Below, in pieces: positions 18,793 through 22,570 of a DNA stretch of 22,570 nucleotides (its first letter is position 1; each line of letters opens with the position of its first letter). The stretch lies in the IMG/VR virus record IMGVR_UViG_3300008448_000718, positions 1-22,570 of that record, one strand, 5' to 3'. The position numbers and the translations under genes were made by a program. The stretch is from a virus. The notes beneath the pieces are model-generated. The model worked only from the letters and a program-made list of their open reading frames with translations. It made no database searches and was not told the DNA's origin.

Positions 18793-19194
18793 TTATCTGG
18801 TTGCCTCTAGTATGAATGAATATTCTTGAGTTGGAAATTCTTGCCCGATAATGTCAAAAATAATTGTTACATTAAATGTATTATCATCCGGAATAGGATC
18901 TACCTGAACTATTACATTATCAACTCTCGGTTCGAAGTTATTAATCGATATTTCAATTTGACTTTGTATTACTGATGCAGTACCAAAATCAACAAATTCA
19001 AATAAACTTTTTGTAATATCGGATCCTAATAATGAATTGAAGAATCTTTCCGTTGGAATAGTTTCTACAATATTTCTTACGGATCTACGAATTGCATTTT
19101 CATTTTTTAATACGGGCAGATCCTTTGTCACTGGATGCGGTTCAAAGGATAAACTGATATCTTTAAATGATCTGGATATCCTTTGAATTGCCAT
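18793..19194 (-). CDS. 25: T4 gp25-like baseplate wedge protein
   Basis: The protein has 133 aa, the family's usual length (T4 gp25 is 132). The central ENAIRRSVRNIVETIPTERF and the later IEISINNFEPRVDNVIVQV match the GPW/gp25 family, in which the NxEPR motif is the most conserved feature (T4 NYEPRIDKL). Although the family was once described as lysozyme-like, gp25 is a structural wedge protein that contacts gp6 and the sheath start. The ATG at 19192-19194 is the only sensible start. It lacks a clear Shine-Dalgarno sequence but sits 19 bases after a perfect late promoter octamer, so the leader would be very short. It is the first gene of the 25-6-7-8 run. Confidence 0.95.
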   Translation of the reverse strand: MAIQRISRSFKDISLSFEPHPVTKDLPVLKNENAIRRSVRNIVETIPTERFFNSLLGSDITKSLFEFVDFGTASVIQSQIEISINNFEPRVDNVIVQVDPIPDDNTFNVTIIFDIIGQEFPTQEYSFILEATR

Positions 19195-19213
19195 CGAACA
19201 AAAGTTTTTTATT

Positions 19214-19221
19214 TATTTATA
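19214..19221 (-). promoter_or_regulatory. T4-type late promoter octamer before gene 25
   Basis: TATAAATA on the minus strand lies directly after the stop codon of the 58-aa gene and 19 bases before the gene 25 ATG. The exact match to the T4 late consensus, in the gap before the first baseplate gene, makes this the best supported late promoter in the window. It would drive the 25-6-7 run. Confidence 0.72.
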
Positions 19222-19222
19222 C

Positions 19223-19399
19223 TTACTTCCAGGAAGAACCATAGCTTGGTTCTGTTCCATATGACCAATCATCATAGTCCTCATCATTACGAATTTTTTC
19301 GTGTAGTTCGACCTGTTTTTTTAAATTGTGTTTTGGTGCAAGGTCATAAACAACTTCTTGAATGACTCTTTTTTGATTTTCGTCTGATTCGAATAGCAT
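19223..19399 (-). CDS. Small acidic hypothetical protein (58 aa)
   Basis: This short gene starts at ATG 19397-19399 and ends at TAA 19223-19225. Its Shine-Dalgarno sequence is among the best in the window: AGGAG six bases before the ATG. The protein begins MLFESDENQKRVIQEVVYDL, continues through a charged helix-prone stretch (KKQVELHEKIRNDEDYDD), and ends in an aromatic, Ser/Gly-rich tail (WSYGTEPSYGSSWK). I do not recognise a family. It lies between speD and gene 25, in the same direction, with two or three small hairpins just upstream of its ribosome binding site. The good initiation signal, the fit between neighbours and the late promoter placed just after its stop argue that it is real. 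Confidence 0.72.
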   Translation of the reverse strand: MLFESDENQKRVIQEVVYDLAPKHNLKKQVELHEKIRNDEDYDDWSYGTEPSYGSSWK

Positions 19400-19467
19400 T
19401 TGAAACTCCTGTTTTAATGAATAAAACAGAAACTTTTATGAAGGAGGTTTCTATCTCCTGTTACTAT
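19400..19467 (-). promoter_or_regulatory. Hairpin cluster between speD and the 58-aa gene
   Basis: This 68-base gap holds overlapping inverted repeats. On the minus strand, CTGTTTTA/TAAAACAG forms an 8-bp stem with a 5-base loop at 19409-19429, ending beside the AGGAG of the 58-aa gene. Just upstream, AGGAG/CTCCT and AGAAAC/GTTTCT can form alternative stems, with AGGAG in one arm. ACAGGAG occurs twice. A role in ending speD transcription or in controlling translation of the small gene is possible. None is shown. Confidence 0.4.
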
Positions 19468-19794
19468 TTAACGATTTATTTCACGAAGTCTAAAATTATT
19501 CGAATCTAAGTATTTTAACAATTCAATGGCAATTAATTTTGGATTTCCATCACCACAAGTATACACATCAATGGCAATAGAACCGTTTTCTGGCCAGGTG
19601 TGGCAAGAAACATGACTTTCAGAAAGTGCGATAACAATAGTACATCCTTGCGGTAAAAAACAATGAGAAAAAATATTCAAAATTGACATTTGAGCGCGTT
19701 TGATTCCACGCTCCATCGTTTCCTGAAGGGCAATACCATCATTTAAGAGGTCAAATTTAACATCATACACCTCTAGTAACAGGTGTTTGCCCAT
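19468..19794 (-). CDS. speD: S-adenosylmethionine decarboxylase proenzyme (SpeD)
   Basis: This enzyme decarboxylates S-adenosylmethionine to give the aminopropyl donor for spermidine synthesis. It is made as a proenzyme that cleaves itself to form a pyruvoyl cofactor. The diagnostic motif LSESHVSCHTWPE is present. Counting from the ATG at 19792-19794 (108 aa), cleavage would fall before Ser60, with His65 and Cys80 (in VYTCGDG) as the other catalytic residues of the short prokaryotic class. The protein opens MGKHLLLEVYDV, like the family start MGRH. The frame extends five codons further to a TTG at 19807-19809, giving 113 aa. That start also fits family spacing (B. subtilis SpeD has three residues before MGRH), so the start is not settled. 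speD is a known auxiliary metabolic gene of cyanophages. Here it sits next to the baseplate genes. Confidence 0.93.
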   Translation of the reverse strand: MGKHLLLEVYDVKFDLLNDGIALQETMERGIKRAQMSILNIFSHCFLPQGCTIVIALSESHVSCHTWPENGSIAIDVYTCGDGNPKLIAIELLKYLDSNNFRLREINR

Positions 19795-19834
19795 TGAAAT
19801 CTGTTTCAATTACTCTAAGTTATTTTTAAAAATT

Positions 19835-19842
19835 TATTTATT
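19835..19842 (-). promoter_or_regulatory. Possible late promoter octamer before speD
   Basis: The minus strand reads AATAAATA within an AATAAATAAAT run, matching the late octamer at 7 of 8 positions. It overlaps the stop of the 201-aa gene and lies about 40 bases before the speD ATG. The run is simple and AT-rich, so it may be chance. Confidence 0.33.
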
Positions 19843-20443
19843 TGATTAAAAAACCAAATCTTTTATAATCCATATCCTTTATTAATTTATATTCAGACAT
19901 ATCTATTTTATTTAATTCTTTTTCATTCCATATTGGAATTGCTACTCTATTTCCATATCTAAAGTCCGGATTTTGGCGAAAATGAACCTCAATTAAATTT
20001 CCATCAATAAATTCACAGTTAATATACTCATAATTTCCCCCTAAATCTTTTAAAATATCAGGAAATTTAACTTTTCTATCAATTTTTTCCCATTTTTCCC
20101 ATTTATAGTAAGGATCTTCTTCATTTTTAGTACCCAAAACAACCAATTCTGACTCTTGATATTTAAAATCCACACTTAGGTGTTCTCCTGTAAAAATTTC
20201 ACACCAAAATTCTGCAGGATGAATATGGTCCGTATACTTTTCTATCCATTCTTTACGAGCGAATCGCCCCATTCCAAGCAAATTAAAAGATGGCCGCACA
20301 ATATAATAGTCGGATTTGGGAACAGTAGTACCAACGGGACCACATGTATAACCCAATATCCGACTTAAAAATAATTTATTGTAAATCCAGAGGTCGGATG
20401 AATGAATATTATTCCATTCATCGTTTCCATCCAAAAGATACAT
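19838..20443 (-). CDS. Conserved-looking cyanophage protein of unknown function (201 aa), possibly ATP-grasp-like
   Basis: The start ATG at 20441-20443 follows the stop of the 48-aa gene with no gap, so the two are probably coupled. I do not recognise a named family. Some segments recall ATP-grasp ligases: PKSDYYIVRPSFNLLGMGR (42-60) like a nucleotide-binding K/R-P..G strand and loop, CEIFTGEHLSVDF (81-93) like the E-x-F-x-G-x-x-x-S-V-D strand, and LIEVHFRQNPDF (150-161) like the terminal E-x-N/H-x-R metal site. At 201 aa it is shorter than complete ATP-grasp enzymes and would lack the N-terminal domain. The resemblance is weak and is offered as a hypothesis only. The sequence is rich in Trp and Tyr, with no membrane segment. 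Confidence 0.8.
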   Translation of the reverse strand: MYLLDGNDEWNNIHSSDLWIYNKLFLSRILGYTCGPVGTTVPKSDYYIVRPSFNLLGMGRFARKEWIEKYTDHIHPAEFWCEIFTGEHLSVDFKYQESELVVLGTKNEEDPYYKWEKWEKIDRKVKFPDILKDLGGNYEYINCEFIDGNLIEVHFRQNPDFRYGNRVAIPIWNEKELNKIDMSEYKLIKDMDYKRFGFLIK

Positions 20444-20590
20444 TTATTTTCCCTGACCTCTGTATTTCTTACGAGCTTTATTACGAGAAGACGCGGCATA
20501 CTTAGTATGAGCACCACAACCTTGTCTGGTCTTTTTGGGAAGAGATTCGATTACCTGCTTTCCACCACCCGATGATTTTTTAATCGCCAT
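20444..20590 (-). CDS. Small basic conserved cyanophage protein (48 aa)
   Basis: This short gene has its ATG at 20588-20590 and TAA at 20444-20446. The protein starts MAIKKSSGGGKQVIESLP and ends SRNKARKKYRGQGK. It is strongly basic throughout, rich in Lys, Arg and Gly, with one Cys and one His in the middle (RQGCGAHTKYAAS). Near-identical short proteins occur in T4-like cyanophages as I recall, always without a known function. The charge suggests nucleic-acid binding, but that is inference. Its ATG overlaps the stop of the preceding 54-aa gene by one base (TAATG), and its stop abuts the next ATG. This compact arrangement supports both starts. Confidence 0.8.
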   Translation of the reverse strand: MAIKKSSGGGKQVIESLPKKTRQGCGAHTKYAASSRNKARKKYRGQGK

Positions 20591-20754
20591 TAGTTTTCTC
20601 CTATAATTTCAGTTTCAAGTTCGTTTGGATTTGGAGAACCAGACTGATAGAAATTATCTGCCAAATCCTCCATAATATCGAAGTATTCTTCTTCTGTAAG
20701 ATTGGAATAAATTTTACGACCCTTACAGAGTATGTTGTAAAATTCGTTAGACAT
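20590..20754 (-). CDS. Small acidic hypothetical protein (54 aa)
   Basis: The frame is open from 20805, but the start that fits is the ATG at 20752-20754, which overlaps the stop of the upstream glycosyltransferase-like gene by one base (TGATG), with AAGAG just upstream. The product begins MSNEFYNILCKGRKIYSNLT and is then acidic (EEEYFDIMEDLADNFYQSG), ending ELETEIIGEN. It looks helical at its centre. No family is recognised. The acidic product sits directly before a strongly basic 48-aa product in a coupled pair, so the two might interact, but nothing in the sequence proves it. Confidence 0.72.
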   Translation of the reverse strand: MSNEFYNILCKGRKIYSNLTEEEYFDIMEDLADNFYQSGSPNPNELETEIIGEN

Positions 20755-21512
20755 CAAATCACTCTTGTTTTTTCGTGCCCAACTCTGATACGAGGATCGC
20801 ACCAAATTTCAAATCCTGCTTCTTTTGCATCTAAACAGAATGATACATCTTCTCCACACATATCCTGAACTTCTCCGGATTCAAAAACTTGCATCTTGGG
20901 AGCAAACCAGGGATACTTCATTTCGGAGTGTTCAAATACTCCATGTTTAATAAGTAACCATCCAAATCCCGCATAATCAACTGTAAATGGTTTACGGCGC
21001 TTACTGATTGACTCAACGGTTTCATGATTCATAACACCGCCATTATTGCGGAAGTCATCCTCCTCCATCCAGTGAGCAACTGATGTAGTGTGACCATCTT
21101 CTGTTGCATACCATCCCGAGGAAATGTCTTTGTCCATCAGAACGAGTTGCCAGAATTTTTCGGTATTAAAGACAATATCAGAGTCAATCCAAAGTTGCCA
21201 ATCATACTTAAGTTTTCCATCCCAAGGAAGTTGGTCGGGTCCGCGAAGAACATTTGCGCCGAGGCATTTGCATCTTGCAAAGTTCACCATGGAAGAATAG
21301 TCTTGGGAGATTTGAATACTTGCTCCGGACTGAACAAGATCGAAACAAAGTTGAACAAAACTTTTTAGATATGTATAGGAGACTCCTCTTCCAGGAAGGC
21401 AAAAGACAATTGATTTGCCCCTCACCATTTCTTTTGCAAGTTCGTAGTCCCATTCTAATTCTTTATTTGATGCCACCGGGGCATTTGCTTTAACGGTAAA
21501 TCCTTTAGCCAT
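20754..21512 (-). CDS. GT-A-like glycosyltransferase
   Basis: The protein has 252 aa from the ATG at 21510-21512. It shows the landmarks of a metal-dependent GT-A glycosyltransferase in order: a first beta strand GKSIVFCLPGRG (32-43), DYSSMVNFARCKCLGAN (71-87) like the nucleotide-sugar-binding region, the DxD motif in LWIDSDIVF (Asp110, Asp112), GFGWLLIKHGVF (182-193), an acidic GEDVSFC (220-226) where the catalytic base would lie, and DPRIRVGHEK (239-248) whose His could hold the metal. Donor and acceptor cannot be told; virion or host glycan modification are both possible. It is the first gene after a strong sigma70-type promoter and is coupled at its end to the 54-aa gene. No signal peptide or membrane segment is seen. 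Confidence 0.83.
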   Translation of the reverse strand: MAKGFTVKANAPVASNKELEWDYELAKEMVRGKSIVFCLPGRGVSYTYLKSFVQLCFDLVQSGASIQISQDYSSMVNFARCKCLGANVLRGPDQLPWDGKLKYDWQLWIDSDIVFNTEKFWQLVLMDKDISSGWYATEDGHTTSVAHWMEEDDFRNNGGVMNHETVESISKRRKPFTVDYAGFGWLLIKHGVFEHSEMKYPWFAPKMQVFESGEVQDMCGEDVSFCLDAKEAGFEIWCDPRIRVGHEKTRVI

Positions 21513-21534
21513 AATAGAAAGTAATTACTTCAGT

Positions 21535-21563
21535 ATCATACAACATTATATATCAGTTGTCAA
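21535..21563 (-). promoter_or_regulatory. Sigma70-type promoter before the glycosyltransferase-like gene
   Basis: On the minus strand a perfect TTGACA (21558-21563) is followed after exactly 17 bases by TATGAT (21535-21540), a 5/6 match to the -10 box. The -35 box starts directly after the stop codon of the 56-aa gene. Transcription would begin near 21528, leaving a leader of only about 15 bases before the ATG. This is the form expected of an early or middle phage promoter read by host RNA polymerase. Confidence 0.78.
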
Positions 21564-21734
21564 TTACTCCTTTTCTGAGAGAATGACTTCTTCTCCATCC
21601 AATGTGAATTTAATCTCAGTATCTTCATACCAAGAAAGTTCATTGATGATTTGTTCGGGAATAATCACAAAATATTTCCCAGTAATTGGATCGACTTGTA
21701 GGGGCTCAAAAATTTCTCCGGAATTTTTTTTCAT
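21564..21734 (-). CDS. AbrB/MazE-like small regulator (56 aa)
   Basis: The gene runs from ATG 21732-21734 to TAA 21564-21566. The product reads MKKNSGEIFEPLQVDPITGK and then YFVIIPEQIINELSWYEDTE, ending in a short strand and an acidic tail (LDGEEVILSEKE). The pattern K-Y-x-V-x-I-P-x-x-I-x-x-E-L-x-W-x-x-x-T-x-I-x-F-x-x-D-G is that of the swapped-hairpin AbrB/SpoVT/MazE fold, which binds DNA as a dimer. Similar tiny proteins are found in cyanomyoviruses as I recall. No toxin partner is visible next to it, so a regulator is more likely than an antitoxin. Its stop touches the -35 box of the next promoter, so it is well placed to affect that promoter, which is inference. Confidence 0.75.
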   Translation of the reverse strand: MKKNSGEIFEPLQVDPITGKYFVIIPEQIINELSWYEDTEIKFTLDGEEVILSEKE

Positions 21735-21853
21735 CTTCGTGTTTATAAAACCTTATTTTATTTTTTATATAGCGAAAAAAATTTTTATGTTTGAGGTTTA
21801 TATATCTCTCGCTTCCGTAACACTTTGTAGGTTAGGGGGACCCGTTGTTTTTA

Positions 21854-21861
21854 TATTTATA
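21854..21861 (-). promoter_or_regulatory. Late promoter-like octamer at the junction
   Basis: TATAAATA on the minus strand lies about 120 bases before the 56-aa gene, inside the loop of an inverted repeat. It matches the T4 late consensus exactly, but the distance from the gene and the unusual setting lower confidence. Confidence 0.35.
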
Positions 21862-21924
21862 TACGGGGTCGCGGACCCCCGGCGACGCACCAAGGGGACT
21901 GTCCTGGCACGAACGACCAGACTG

Positions 21925-21942
21925 CCCCCTCACGAACGGGGG
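21925..21942 (-). repeat. GC hairpin with the CACGAAC heptamer in its loop
   Basis: CCCCC at 21925-21929 pairs with GGGGG at 21938-21942 around the loop TCACGAAC. It lies just downstream of the stop of the 68-aa ORF. A second, weaker hairpin, CTGG/CCAG at 21904-21920, also has CACGAAC in its loop. A terminator role is possible, but no T-run follows. Confidence 0.45.
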
Positions 21943-21955
21943 AGGGTCACCCCTC
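21942..21955 (-). repeat. Hairpin holding the TGA stop of the 68-aa ORF in its loop
   Basis: GAGGG (21942-21946) pairs with CCCTC (21951-21955), leaving the loop TCAC, which contains the TGA stop (21947-21949 on the minus strand). It shares one base with the neighbouring 21925-21942 hairpin, so the two could compete. Confidence 0.45.
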
Positions 21956-22153
21956 TTGAACCCACCCGCTAATGGGGCAACGGTGGGCGGCGGCGTGAGA
22001 CTCAGAAAACTGTGCGGCGATGGTGGCAGCGGGCACCCCCCAGTGGATGAACTGAGAGGGGAGGGAACCGTCCTTCATTTGGTCGGCACGGGAAATCCAT
22101 TTGATTTGACGGGTCTTCAGGTCGGAGCAGGCAGCGTAGGGGTAGAGTGCCAT
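21947..22153 (-). CDS. Small hypothetical protein in the GC-rich region (68 aa)
   Basis: The frame is open from 22216, but the start at ATG 22151-22153 is preferred because it lies directly after a leader module that also precedes the next small ORF. The product begins MALYPYAACSDLKTRQIKWI and continues with SRADQMKDGSLPSQFIHWGV and an Ala-rich stretch, ending CPISGWVQEG. I recognise no family and no motif. Codon use is GC-rich (CTG, GCC, CCC), unlike the phage genes to the left. The stop TGA lies in the loop of a GC hairpin. Support comes from the shared leader and the shared TGA-plus-CCCGTTCGTG ending. Without these, the ORF could be chance. Confidence 0.5.
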   Translation of the reverse strand: MALYPYAACSDLKTRQIKWISRADQMKDGSLPSQFIHWGVPAATIAAQFSESHAAAHRCPISGWVQEG

Positions 22154-22192
22154 CGGTTGGGGTTGGTTGTGAACTGAGAGAATCATAGCACG
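22154..22192 (-). promoter_or_regulatory. Repeated promoter/leader module, copy B
   Basis: These 39 bases on the minus strand begin CGTGCTATGATT, continue CAGTTCA and ACCAACC, and end at the ATG of the 68-aa ORF. They share CGTGCTA..ATT, CAGTTCA and ACCAACC in the same order with copy A. TATGAT at 22182-22187 could be a -10 box, with TGC just before it as an extended -10 element. No clear -35 box is seen. Confidence 0.55.
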
Positions 22193-22225
22193 AATGGGGC
22201 AGGGCACGAACCCCACCCCACGAAC
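22189..22225. repeat. Triplet of CACGAAC/T heptamers
   Basis: On the plus strand CACGAAT (22189-22195), CACGAAC (22205-22211) and CACGAAC (22219-22225) follow at 16- and 14-base steps between the two small ORFs. The first overlaps the start of leader copy B. CCCC-ACGAAC-GGGG at 22216-22229 is a perfect small hairpin around the third copy. Confidence 0.55.
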
Positions 22226-22240
22226 GGGGGTCAGTCCCCC
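22226..22240 (-). repeat. Hairpin holding the TGA stop of the 60-aa ORF in its loop
   Basis: GGGGG (22226-22230) pairs with CCCCC (22236-22240) around the loop TCAGT. The stop TGA (22231-22233 on the minus strand) lies in the loop. The GGGG arm is shared with the CCCC-ACGAAC-GGGG hairpin to its left, so only one of the two can form at a time. Confidence 0.45.
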
Positions 22241-22413
22241 ATCGCTTCCTTCAATGCCTCAAACGCTGCCATCCAATGGGCGGCGTCGGCGTGTTTGCCA
22301 GCGAGGCGCTCATCGACGGCAAAGCAGAGCACGGCAGTTCGGATGGTGCCCCAAGTCCCATCGGGCAGGGTCAGGGTGGTAAGGTTCTCAGCGTTCCAGG
22401 GAGTGGCAGTCAT
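22231..22413 (-). CDS. Small hypothetical protein in the GC-rich region (60 aa)
   Basis: The ATG at 22411-22413 is chosen because it lies directly after the repeated leader module; the frame is open upstream to 22449. The product begins MTATPWNAENLTTLTLPDGT, continues WGTIRTAVLCFAVDERLAGK, and ends in an amphipathic-looking helix (HWMAAFEALKEAMGD). The composition is protein-like: a short beta-prone first half, then an Ala- and Glu-rich helix. I recognise no family. Codon choice is GC-rich and differs sharply from the phage structural genes. The shared leader, the TGA inside a GC hairpin and the neighbours in the same direction argue for a real gene. Confidence 0.58.
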   Translation of the reverse strand: MTATPWNAENLTTLTLPDGTWGTIRTAVLCFAVDERLAGKHADAAHWMAAFEALKEAMGD

Positions 22414-22450
22414 GAGAGGCGGTTGGTTGAACTGGGTTAATTGTAGCACG
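22414..22450 (-). promoter_or_regulatory. Repeated promoter/leader module, copy A
   Basis: These 37 bases on the minus strand begin CGTGCTACAATTAACC, continue CAGTTCA and ACCAACC, and end at the ATG of the 60-aa ORF. TACAAT at 22440-22445 is a 5/6 match to the -10 box, and lies 26 bases from the ATG, against 28 for copy B. No Shine-Dalgarno sequence is seen in either copy. Confidence 0.55.
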
Positions 22451-22455
22451 TAACG

Positions 22456-22485
22456 GGGGTCAGACCATATGGTCCGCCAGACCCC
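22456..22485 (-). repeat. Nested inverted repeats over the end of the partial ORF
   Basis: GGGGTC (22456-22461) pairs with GACCCC (22480-22485). Between them is the perfect 12-base palindrome GACCATATGGTC (22463-22474). The stop TGA of the partial ORF (22460-22462) overlaps the end of the outer left arm. Confidence 0.45.
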
Positions 22486-22570
22486 AGTTAATCACAATCA
22501 GGTCGGGGTTCAGGCGAGCGCAAGTGTCCCATGCCTGCTGGGCGGTTTCTGCCATATAGGACAGGGTGAC
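22460..22570 (-). CDS. Small hypothetical protein, cut by the window edge
   Basis: An open frame enters from the right edge and ends at TGA 22460-22462, leaving 36 visible residues. It reads LSYMAETAQQAWDTCARLNP and then DLIVINWGLADHMV. The pattern is a charged helix followed by a hydrophobic strand, as in a small folded protein. The ATG of MAETAQ (22553-22555) could be the start, which would make it only 31 aa, or the gene may continue beyond the window. No family is recognised. Its stop is followed by CCCCCGTTACGTG, matching the pattern after the other two ORFs of this region. Confidence 0.5.
   Translation of the reverse strand, partial: VTLSYMAETAQQAWDTCARLNPDLIVINWGLADHMV

Follow-up and report, generated by a model that had tools for sequence, protein, structure and literature searches.

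Small early genes of T4-type phages are reportedly separated by promoter-early stem-loop (PeSL) cassettes, as is said in work attributed to Arbiol et al. 2010 and Comeau et al. 2014, and exchange of genes through these cassettes has reportedly been proposed for T4-type coliphages and vibriophages. The T4 early promoters are sigma-70 promoters, conserved beyond the two hexamers, and drive many small early genes. PeSLs are composites of promoter and stem-loop implicated in gene shuffling in T4-like phages (PMC4503421). PeSL-mediated exchange has been judged unlikely for the "ORFanage" region of S-PM2 (~5-17 kb), and the gain and loss of hundreds of cyanomyovirus ORFans is an open question (PMC4503421). 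The organisation of early transcription in cyanomyoviruses is described as unsettled: these viruses lack alt, modA and modB, their early genes are assumed to be read by unmodified host RNA polymerase, early and middle transcription are called unclear, and host-like sigma-70 early promoters have been predicted 5' of the T4 early-gene homologues of S-PM2 and Syn9, with no repeated cassette bearing a conserved leader described in that early-promoter literature (PMC2984593). The cyanomyovirus hyperplastic region (Millard 2009) lies between g15 and g18 and carries host-derived metabolic genes (PMC2984593).

Two modules in a small-gene array beside the baseplate genes

The window, by which we mean the whole 22.6-kb virus record analysed (22,570 nt), resembles T4-like cyanophages, with S-SKS1 (over the baseplate wedge genes) and S-SRM01 as its closest annotated relatives. 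Most of it has ~30% GC and codes for baseplate proteins, and its right end, at 59% GC, carries an array of small minus-strand ORFs adjoining gp25-gp6; S-SRM01 has a small-ORF array at the equivalent place, likewise adjoining gp25-gp6. The rise in GC content at the array (21820-22570) would fit small genes that derive from, or are shared with, viruses of GC-rich hosts. All features of the array described here are on the minus strand. The first gene is cut by the contig end, leaving its 3' end (22460-22570; stop TGA 22462-22460), and is followed by small ORF 1 (22231-22413, 60 aa, behind module 1), which had no Pfam or PHROG match and belongs to a 14-member family in the module set (dN/dS ~0.14), and by small ORF 2 (21947-22153, 68 aa, behind module 2), one of the 47 LxTRQxxW-family members in the module set (family dN/dS ~0.13).

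A first-pass annotation had proposed that the ATGs of these two unrelated ORFs, at 22413 and 22153, are preceded by the same blocks in the same order, with a -10-like hexamer at a matching place. On re-reading the sequence, the blocks, their order and their coordinates proved correct, and the ORFs indeed fall in different protein families. In module 1 (22414-22450; CGTGC-TACAAT(-10)-TAACC-CAGTTCA-ACCAACCGCCTCTC, then ATG), CGTGCTA lies at 22450-22444, TACAAT at 22445-22440, CAGTTCA at 22434-22428 and ACCAACC at 22427-22421. In module 2 (22154-22192; CGTGC-TATGAT(-10)-TCTCT-CAGTTCA-CAACCAACCCCAACCG, then ATG), the corresponding positions are 22192-22186, 22187-22182 (TATGAT), 22176-22170 and 22167-22161. 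The -10 hexamers, identified from the sequence and for module 1 also from a -10 profile over 386 unique modules, are both extended by TGC (22448-22446 and 22190-22188). Set in register from the -10, the two modules read CGTGC-TACAAT-TAACC-CAGTTCA-ACCAACC-N7-ATG (22450-22411) and CGTGC-TATGAT-TCTCT-CAGTTCA-CAACCAACC-N7-ATG (22192-22151); the stretch from the -10 to CAGTTCA is ungapped in both, and ACCAACC ends 7 nt 5' of each ATG. Smith-Waterman alignment of the two 45-nt leaders scored 30, above all 500 dinucleotide shuffles (mean 12.9, maximum 23), which upholds the claimed likeness against shuffled sequence.

Two features are absent from the first-pass annotation: a GC hairpin directly 5' of each -10, and the hundreds of copies elsewhere. 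The hairpin at the module 1 promoter (22456-22485; fold z-score -2.29) has a 3' arm that overlaps the preceding ORF's stop codon. The one at the module 2 promoter (22194-22221) has a 12-bp stem and, together with a small hairpin covering the 3' end of ORF 1 (22226-22240; stop TGA 22233-22231), folds at -32.5 kcal/mol (z-score -3.21). The window hairpins are without the T-run of a textbook terminator. Both leaders thus have a common layout, consisting of the GC hairpin, TGC-TACAAT or TGC-TATGAT as extended -10, a 5-nt variable stretch, CAGTTCA, an unstructured A/C-rich leader and the ATG; no Shine-Dalgarno site was found in the window leaders.

The array ends in a hairpin cluster (21845-21950) followed by a late-type promoter, TATAAATA (21861-21854), the sequence that late genes in the window have in place of the cassette promoter. 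Between the array and the next gene block lies a conserved non-coding element, AAAGTGTTACGGAAGCGA / CCTAACCTACAAAGTGTTACNNAAGCGA (21809-21826), which may mark an early/late boundary; CCTAACCTACAAAGTGTTACNNAAGCGA is present in 67 of 315 loci (e.g., L314 2512-2529, L315 1511-1528, L002 17389-17406), as well as in P-SSM2, S-SRM01 and S-H9-2. Directly after this element, a 56-aa protein is encoded (21564-21734, minus strand) that has a PHROG 661 match and weakly matches the MazE/AbrB type, short of the Pfam cut-off.

Recurrence and anatomy of the module before independent genes

The module is real, widespread and functionally coherent: it recurs, with a common anatomy and interchangeable leaders, independently of the gene behind it. 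The exact pattern TATGATTNTCTCAGTTCA was found in 31 IMG/VR contigs, every match shortly 5' of an ATG, and the pattern TACAATTNNCYCAGTTCA gave at least 120 IMG/VR matches, a handful among those listed being chance matches in other contexts. An ORF start fell within the search window for 373 of the 386 unique module-like sites, mostly 9-17 nt downstream. Viral contigs recruited by the module itself contain 464 copies at 131 loci, 6-21 nt 5' of start codons, a count whose recruitment biases prevalence upward, the 45% of a protein-recruited set (below) being fairer. The densest locus (L064) holds 15 copies in 11.3 kb, and all copies are on one strand in each of the 102 multi-copy loci. Module 1 as such is also present in L029, L049, L057 and L154-L161. 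Behind the module stand 83 sequence-unrelated ORF families, 43 of them singletons, with a median ORF of 63 aa; purifying selection acts on the larger families, most of which have a median dN/dS of 0.11-0.15 (one family stands at 0.52), and because dN/dS is ~0.13 in most families, the module-led ORFs are, by their substitution pattern, real genes. Further copies directly 5' of short ORFs in related genomes, on which the first-pass annotation had made its proposal depend, are therefore numerous, and its central idea that one control cassette is re-used for different small genes gains support from the 83 families and from an alignment score above every shuffle.

When CAGTTCA alone was required, the commonest hexamers 11 nt earlier were TACAAT, TATACT, TATGAT, TATAAT, TAGAAT and TAGGAT, therefore a -10 profile, in which T1, A2 and T6 dominate (unfiltered CAGTTCA sites before ORFs). 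TTGAC is nearly confined to a spacing of 17-18 bp 5' of the -10 (39/341, vs ~1 per position elsewhere), often within the hairpin loop, as in S-PM2 (GGGAGCAGG-TTGA-CGCCTGCTCCC), and TGn lies directly 5' of the -10 in 126/341. With TGn in about a third of copies and TTGAC in about a tenth, some promoters look weak by consensus. From its elements and their spacing, the cassette is read as containing a host sigma-70-type promoter, with the transcript start predicted, from the usual -10 distance, at the A of CAGTTCA. The mean composition 5' of the -10 has one G-rich and one C-rich arm, and folding of 341 unique regions gave a mean z of -1.05 and a median of -0.95, with 26% below -2; hairpins are weak in many copies, and a stem-loop by the promoter, present in both window modules, is not found in every copy. 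The stretch from CAGTTCA to the ATG is A/C-rich and unfolded, with a Shine-Dalgarno-like site in 7%.

Near -37 from the -10, and tied to it in position, 88 of 265 de-duplicated modules carry a box, TGNCACA, with a weaker inverted partner, TGTGNCA, 17 bp further 5' (e.g., in L062, in L064 and in S-CAM7, L153 14580-18550). An RNA hairpin was considered for this pair and rejected, the pairing being no better than for independent columns. Since its halves lack RNA-stem covariation, the box is likelier a putative protein-binding site.

Carriers of the module

Because gp23 is present in 13 of 15 large records and a PF00124 photosystem gene (psbA/psbD type) in 9 of 15, the module-bearing contigs are, judged by gene content, T4-like cyanophages. 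S-PM2 has 7 forward matches, all within 2.5 kb (22.07-24.60 kb), among them two pairs that are nearly identical and stand in front of unrelated genes. Three module-led S-PM2 ORFs of 55, 71 and 89 aa are missing from the annotation (plus strand; L152 531-698, 1937-2152 and 2223-2492, or 22097-22264, 23503-23718 and 23789-24058 of the record), and the cassette thus offers a means to find missed small genes, three of them in this reference record. The third, homologous to DUF7249 proteins, overlaps the opposite-strand annotation S-PM2p070, which is probably wrong. S-PM2p068 (L152 747-1208), annotated as an anti-restriction protein, has a weak, sub-threshold ArdA match; as it lies directly behind a module copy, some of the cassette cargo may be counter-defence genes.

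S-CAM7 carries a sister cassette, composed of box, hairpin, TGCTACAAT, TGATTCATACCAAACAAAGGAACC and ATG, in 11 copies within 5 kb, with 0 expected from shuffling; the exact type is rare in IMG/VR, where the 21-base form of its leader was found in 3 contigs only. The annotated start of BOW86_gp116 (S-CAM7, L153 19596) falls inside a cassette promoter, ATGGTCTACAATTCATTCATACC, so that the gene probably starts further downstream than annotated. Another cassette-like repeat, TATACTAATCACATCAACACA, is present in 6 copies at L153 12397-14348 of the same phage, and S-SRM01 (L002 17990-18560) has, 5' of small ORFs, intergenic hairpins of the form GGGGNGA...TCNCCCC with T-rich stretches behind them. 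When the 17-base core plus ATG was run against 84,980 bacterial and archaeal genomes, 5 matches were returned, none with cassette context; three of them lie in unrelated bacteria and two in a pair of filamentous cyanobacteria, and a host origin of the module was rejected.

Interchangeable leaders, alternative explanations and comparison with PeSLs

Homology to the two window proteins recruited 160 loci with 107 unique upstream regions, of which 48 carry the CAGTTCA module in register with the -10, and in most others this -10 is followed by a different leader that also recurs (ACTCTCAACCGCAACNGACC, TCATTCGTTCTCAACC, TTCCAAAGCAACCGAC, ATGGGAACCAAAGCAAACGA, GATCACATCAACC or ACTCAAGCAACC). With several leader types obtained by protein-based recruitment, the idea of CAGTTCA being universal in the arrays was discarded as an artefact of motif recruitment. 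Of 1336 unique genes, 1035 have a -10-like hexamer upstream, for the most part 27-34 nt 5' of the ATG; CAGTTCA occurs with 82 families and the other named leader types with up to 14. For pairs within a family at 90% amino-acid identity or more and with a named leader type, the two leaders are of one type in 479 cases and of different types in 130, the latter spread over 12 of 34 families (the pairs are non-independent and the counts descriptive). In the type-differing pairs, identity is 88% over the first 60 coding nt and 54% over the 60 nt upstream, vs an unrelated baseline of 50%. In addition, 79 same-locus pairs of unrelated genes have common exact upstream runs of 28-56 nt (again non-independent pairs), the longest of which includes the hairpin, the -35, the -10 and CAGTTCA. 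Within contigs, leaders are modestly more alike than between contigs (distance 0.513 vs 0.569).

The explanation that we consider probable, with some confidence, is that the cassette is the cyanophage counterpart of the T4-type PeSL, which drives each small gene alone via host sigma-70 RNA polymerase and forms a seam at which genes are exchanged. Early timing, termination, the transcription start and recombination at the cassette are what we infer within this explanation. Where the upstream gene ends, the GC-rich stem-loop would terminate or protect its transcript. The sigma-70-type promoter would then act through its -10 hexamer, aided by the TGn extension or by a TTGAC -35 possibly held in the hairpin loop, and transcription beginning at the predicted A would yield a 20-25 nt A/C-rich, unfolded leader, free of a Shine-Dalgarno site, before the ATG. 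Every small gene would thereby form a separate transcription unit, read early by unmodified host polymerase; common regulation of the array genes as early genes, as the first-pass annotation had suggested, is plausible because the promoters are sigma-70-like. Since the cassette is nearly identical before unrelated genes, homologous recombination at it could exchange genes or leaders, as the swaps suggest, and re-use of the cassette probably lets cyanophages swap genes without losing control of them.

Conservation that runs past the -10 to the predicted mRNA 5' end (AGUUCA...), in leaders that are A/C-rich, unfolded and devoid of a Shine-Dalgarno site, could instead mean that the leader is chiefly post-transcriptional, being read by the ribosome, a small RNA or a phage RNA-binding protein, for which RegA, present in cyanomyoviruses (PMC2984593), is a candidate, with the promoter secondary. 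We regard this as unlikely, because the -10 is kept where the leader type differs, making the promoter the constant part, and because type switches between near-identical genes argue against a gene-specific RNA signal; nor did any Rfam covariance model match at E <= 1 in the window (19000-22570). Comparably doubtful is a further proposal, that the discrete leader types (CAGTTCA, TCAACCGCAAC, ATTCGTTC, CAAAGCAA, GATCACA, ATTCATACCAAA and others), whether or not the upstream TGTGNCA-N10-TGNCACA box accompanies them, serve as regulatory addresses for different host or phage factors, so that a gene could be re-timed by a cassette swap and the arrays would embody a combinatorial expression code more than a recombination seam.

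A little less probable again is that the likeness reflects host polymerase demand only, a host-type promoter consensus having been selected gene by gene, with no cassette exchange. The -10, TGn and TTGAC spacing does fit host sigma-70 requirements, and the copies within a contig are only slightly closer than those between contigs. However, sigma-70 does not require CAGTTCA or ATTCATACCAAA 3' of the -10, several discrete leader types occupy one place and differ between near-identical genes, unrelated genes have common runs of up to 56 nt with the hairpin included, and the scan of 84,980 bacterial and archaeal genomes did not turn up the 17-base core as a module. A short mobile element (MITE- or REP-like) inserting between genes by itself would account for many dispersed copies of a hairpin-bearing sequence, but it is highly improbable given the fixed orientation to the gene, the fixed distance to the ATG and, in the copies inspected, a module that runs straight into coding sequence; no unoccupied site bearing target duplications came to light.

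For the counterpart of the PeSL that we favour, the several hundred natural cassette variants provide a ready consensus for cyanophage promoters, the cassette offers a concrete seam for gene exchange, and the cultured S-PM2 and S-CAM7 make the reading testable. The first-pass annotation had stated that no described element has this form, which is too strong, since the T4-type PeSLs are the same kind of thing. Like them, the cassette is a composite of stem-loop and host-type promoter, repeated between small genes of T4-like plastic regions, and it may likewise be tied to gene swapping; its many copies, up to 15 per locus, lie between small genes in T4-like cyanophage contigs. Because architecture and genomic setting agree, it would work like a PeSL. 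The cyanophage cassette probably differs in sequence. Its -35 may lie in the loop of the hairpin, and TGn often takes its place; the cassette extends to the ATG with no Shine-Dalgarno site, and it has a strongly conserved initially transcribed block and several interchangeable leader types, two features that PeSLs are not known to have. The T4 early promoters resemble it as sigma-70 promoters conserved beyond the hexamers and placed before small genes; they are, however, a promoter class, whereas the cyanophage hairpin, promoter and leader travel as one unit to the start codon. With the predicted early promoters of S-PM2 and Syn9 the cassette has in common the phage family and the assumed type of polymerase, and the assumption of a host polymerase (PMC2984593) fits the proposed reading. 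Both the window array and the hyperplastic region are plastic gene insertions adjoining structural modules, but the array consists of small ORFans with promoters of their own, next to gp25. The S-PM2 cassettes found here lie in another region (22.1-24.6 kb) than the ORFanage. If the favoured reading is true, PeSL-like shuffling extends from coliphages and vibriophages to cyanophages.
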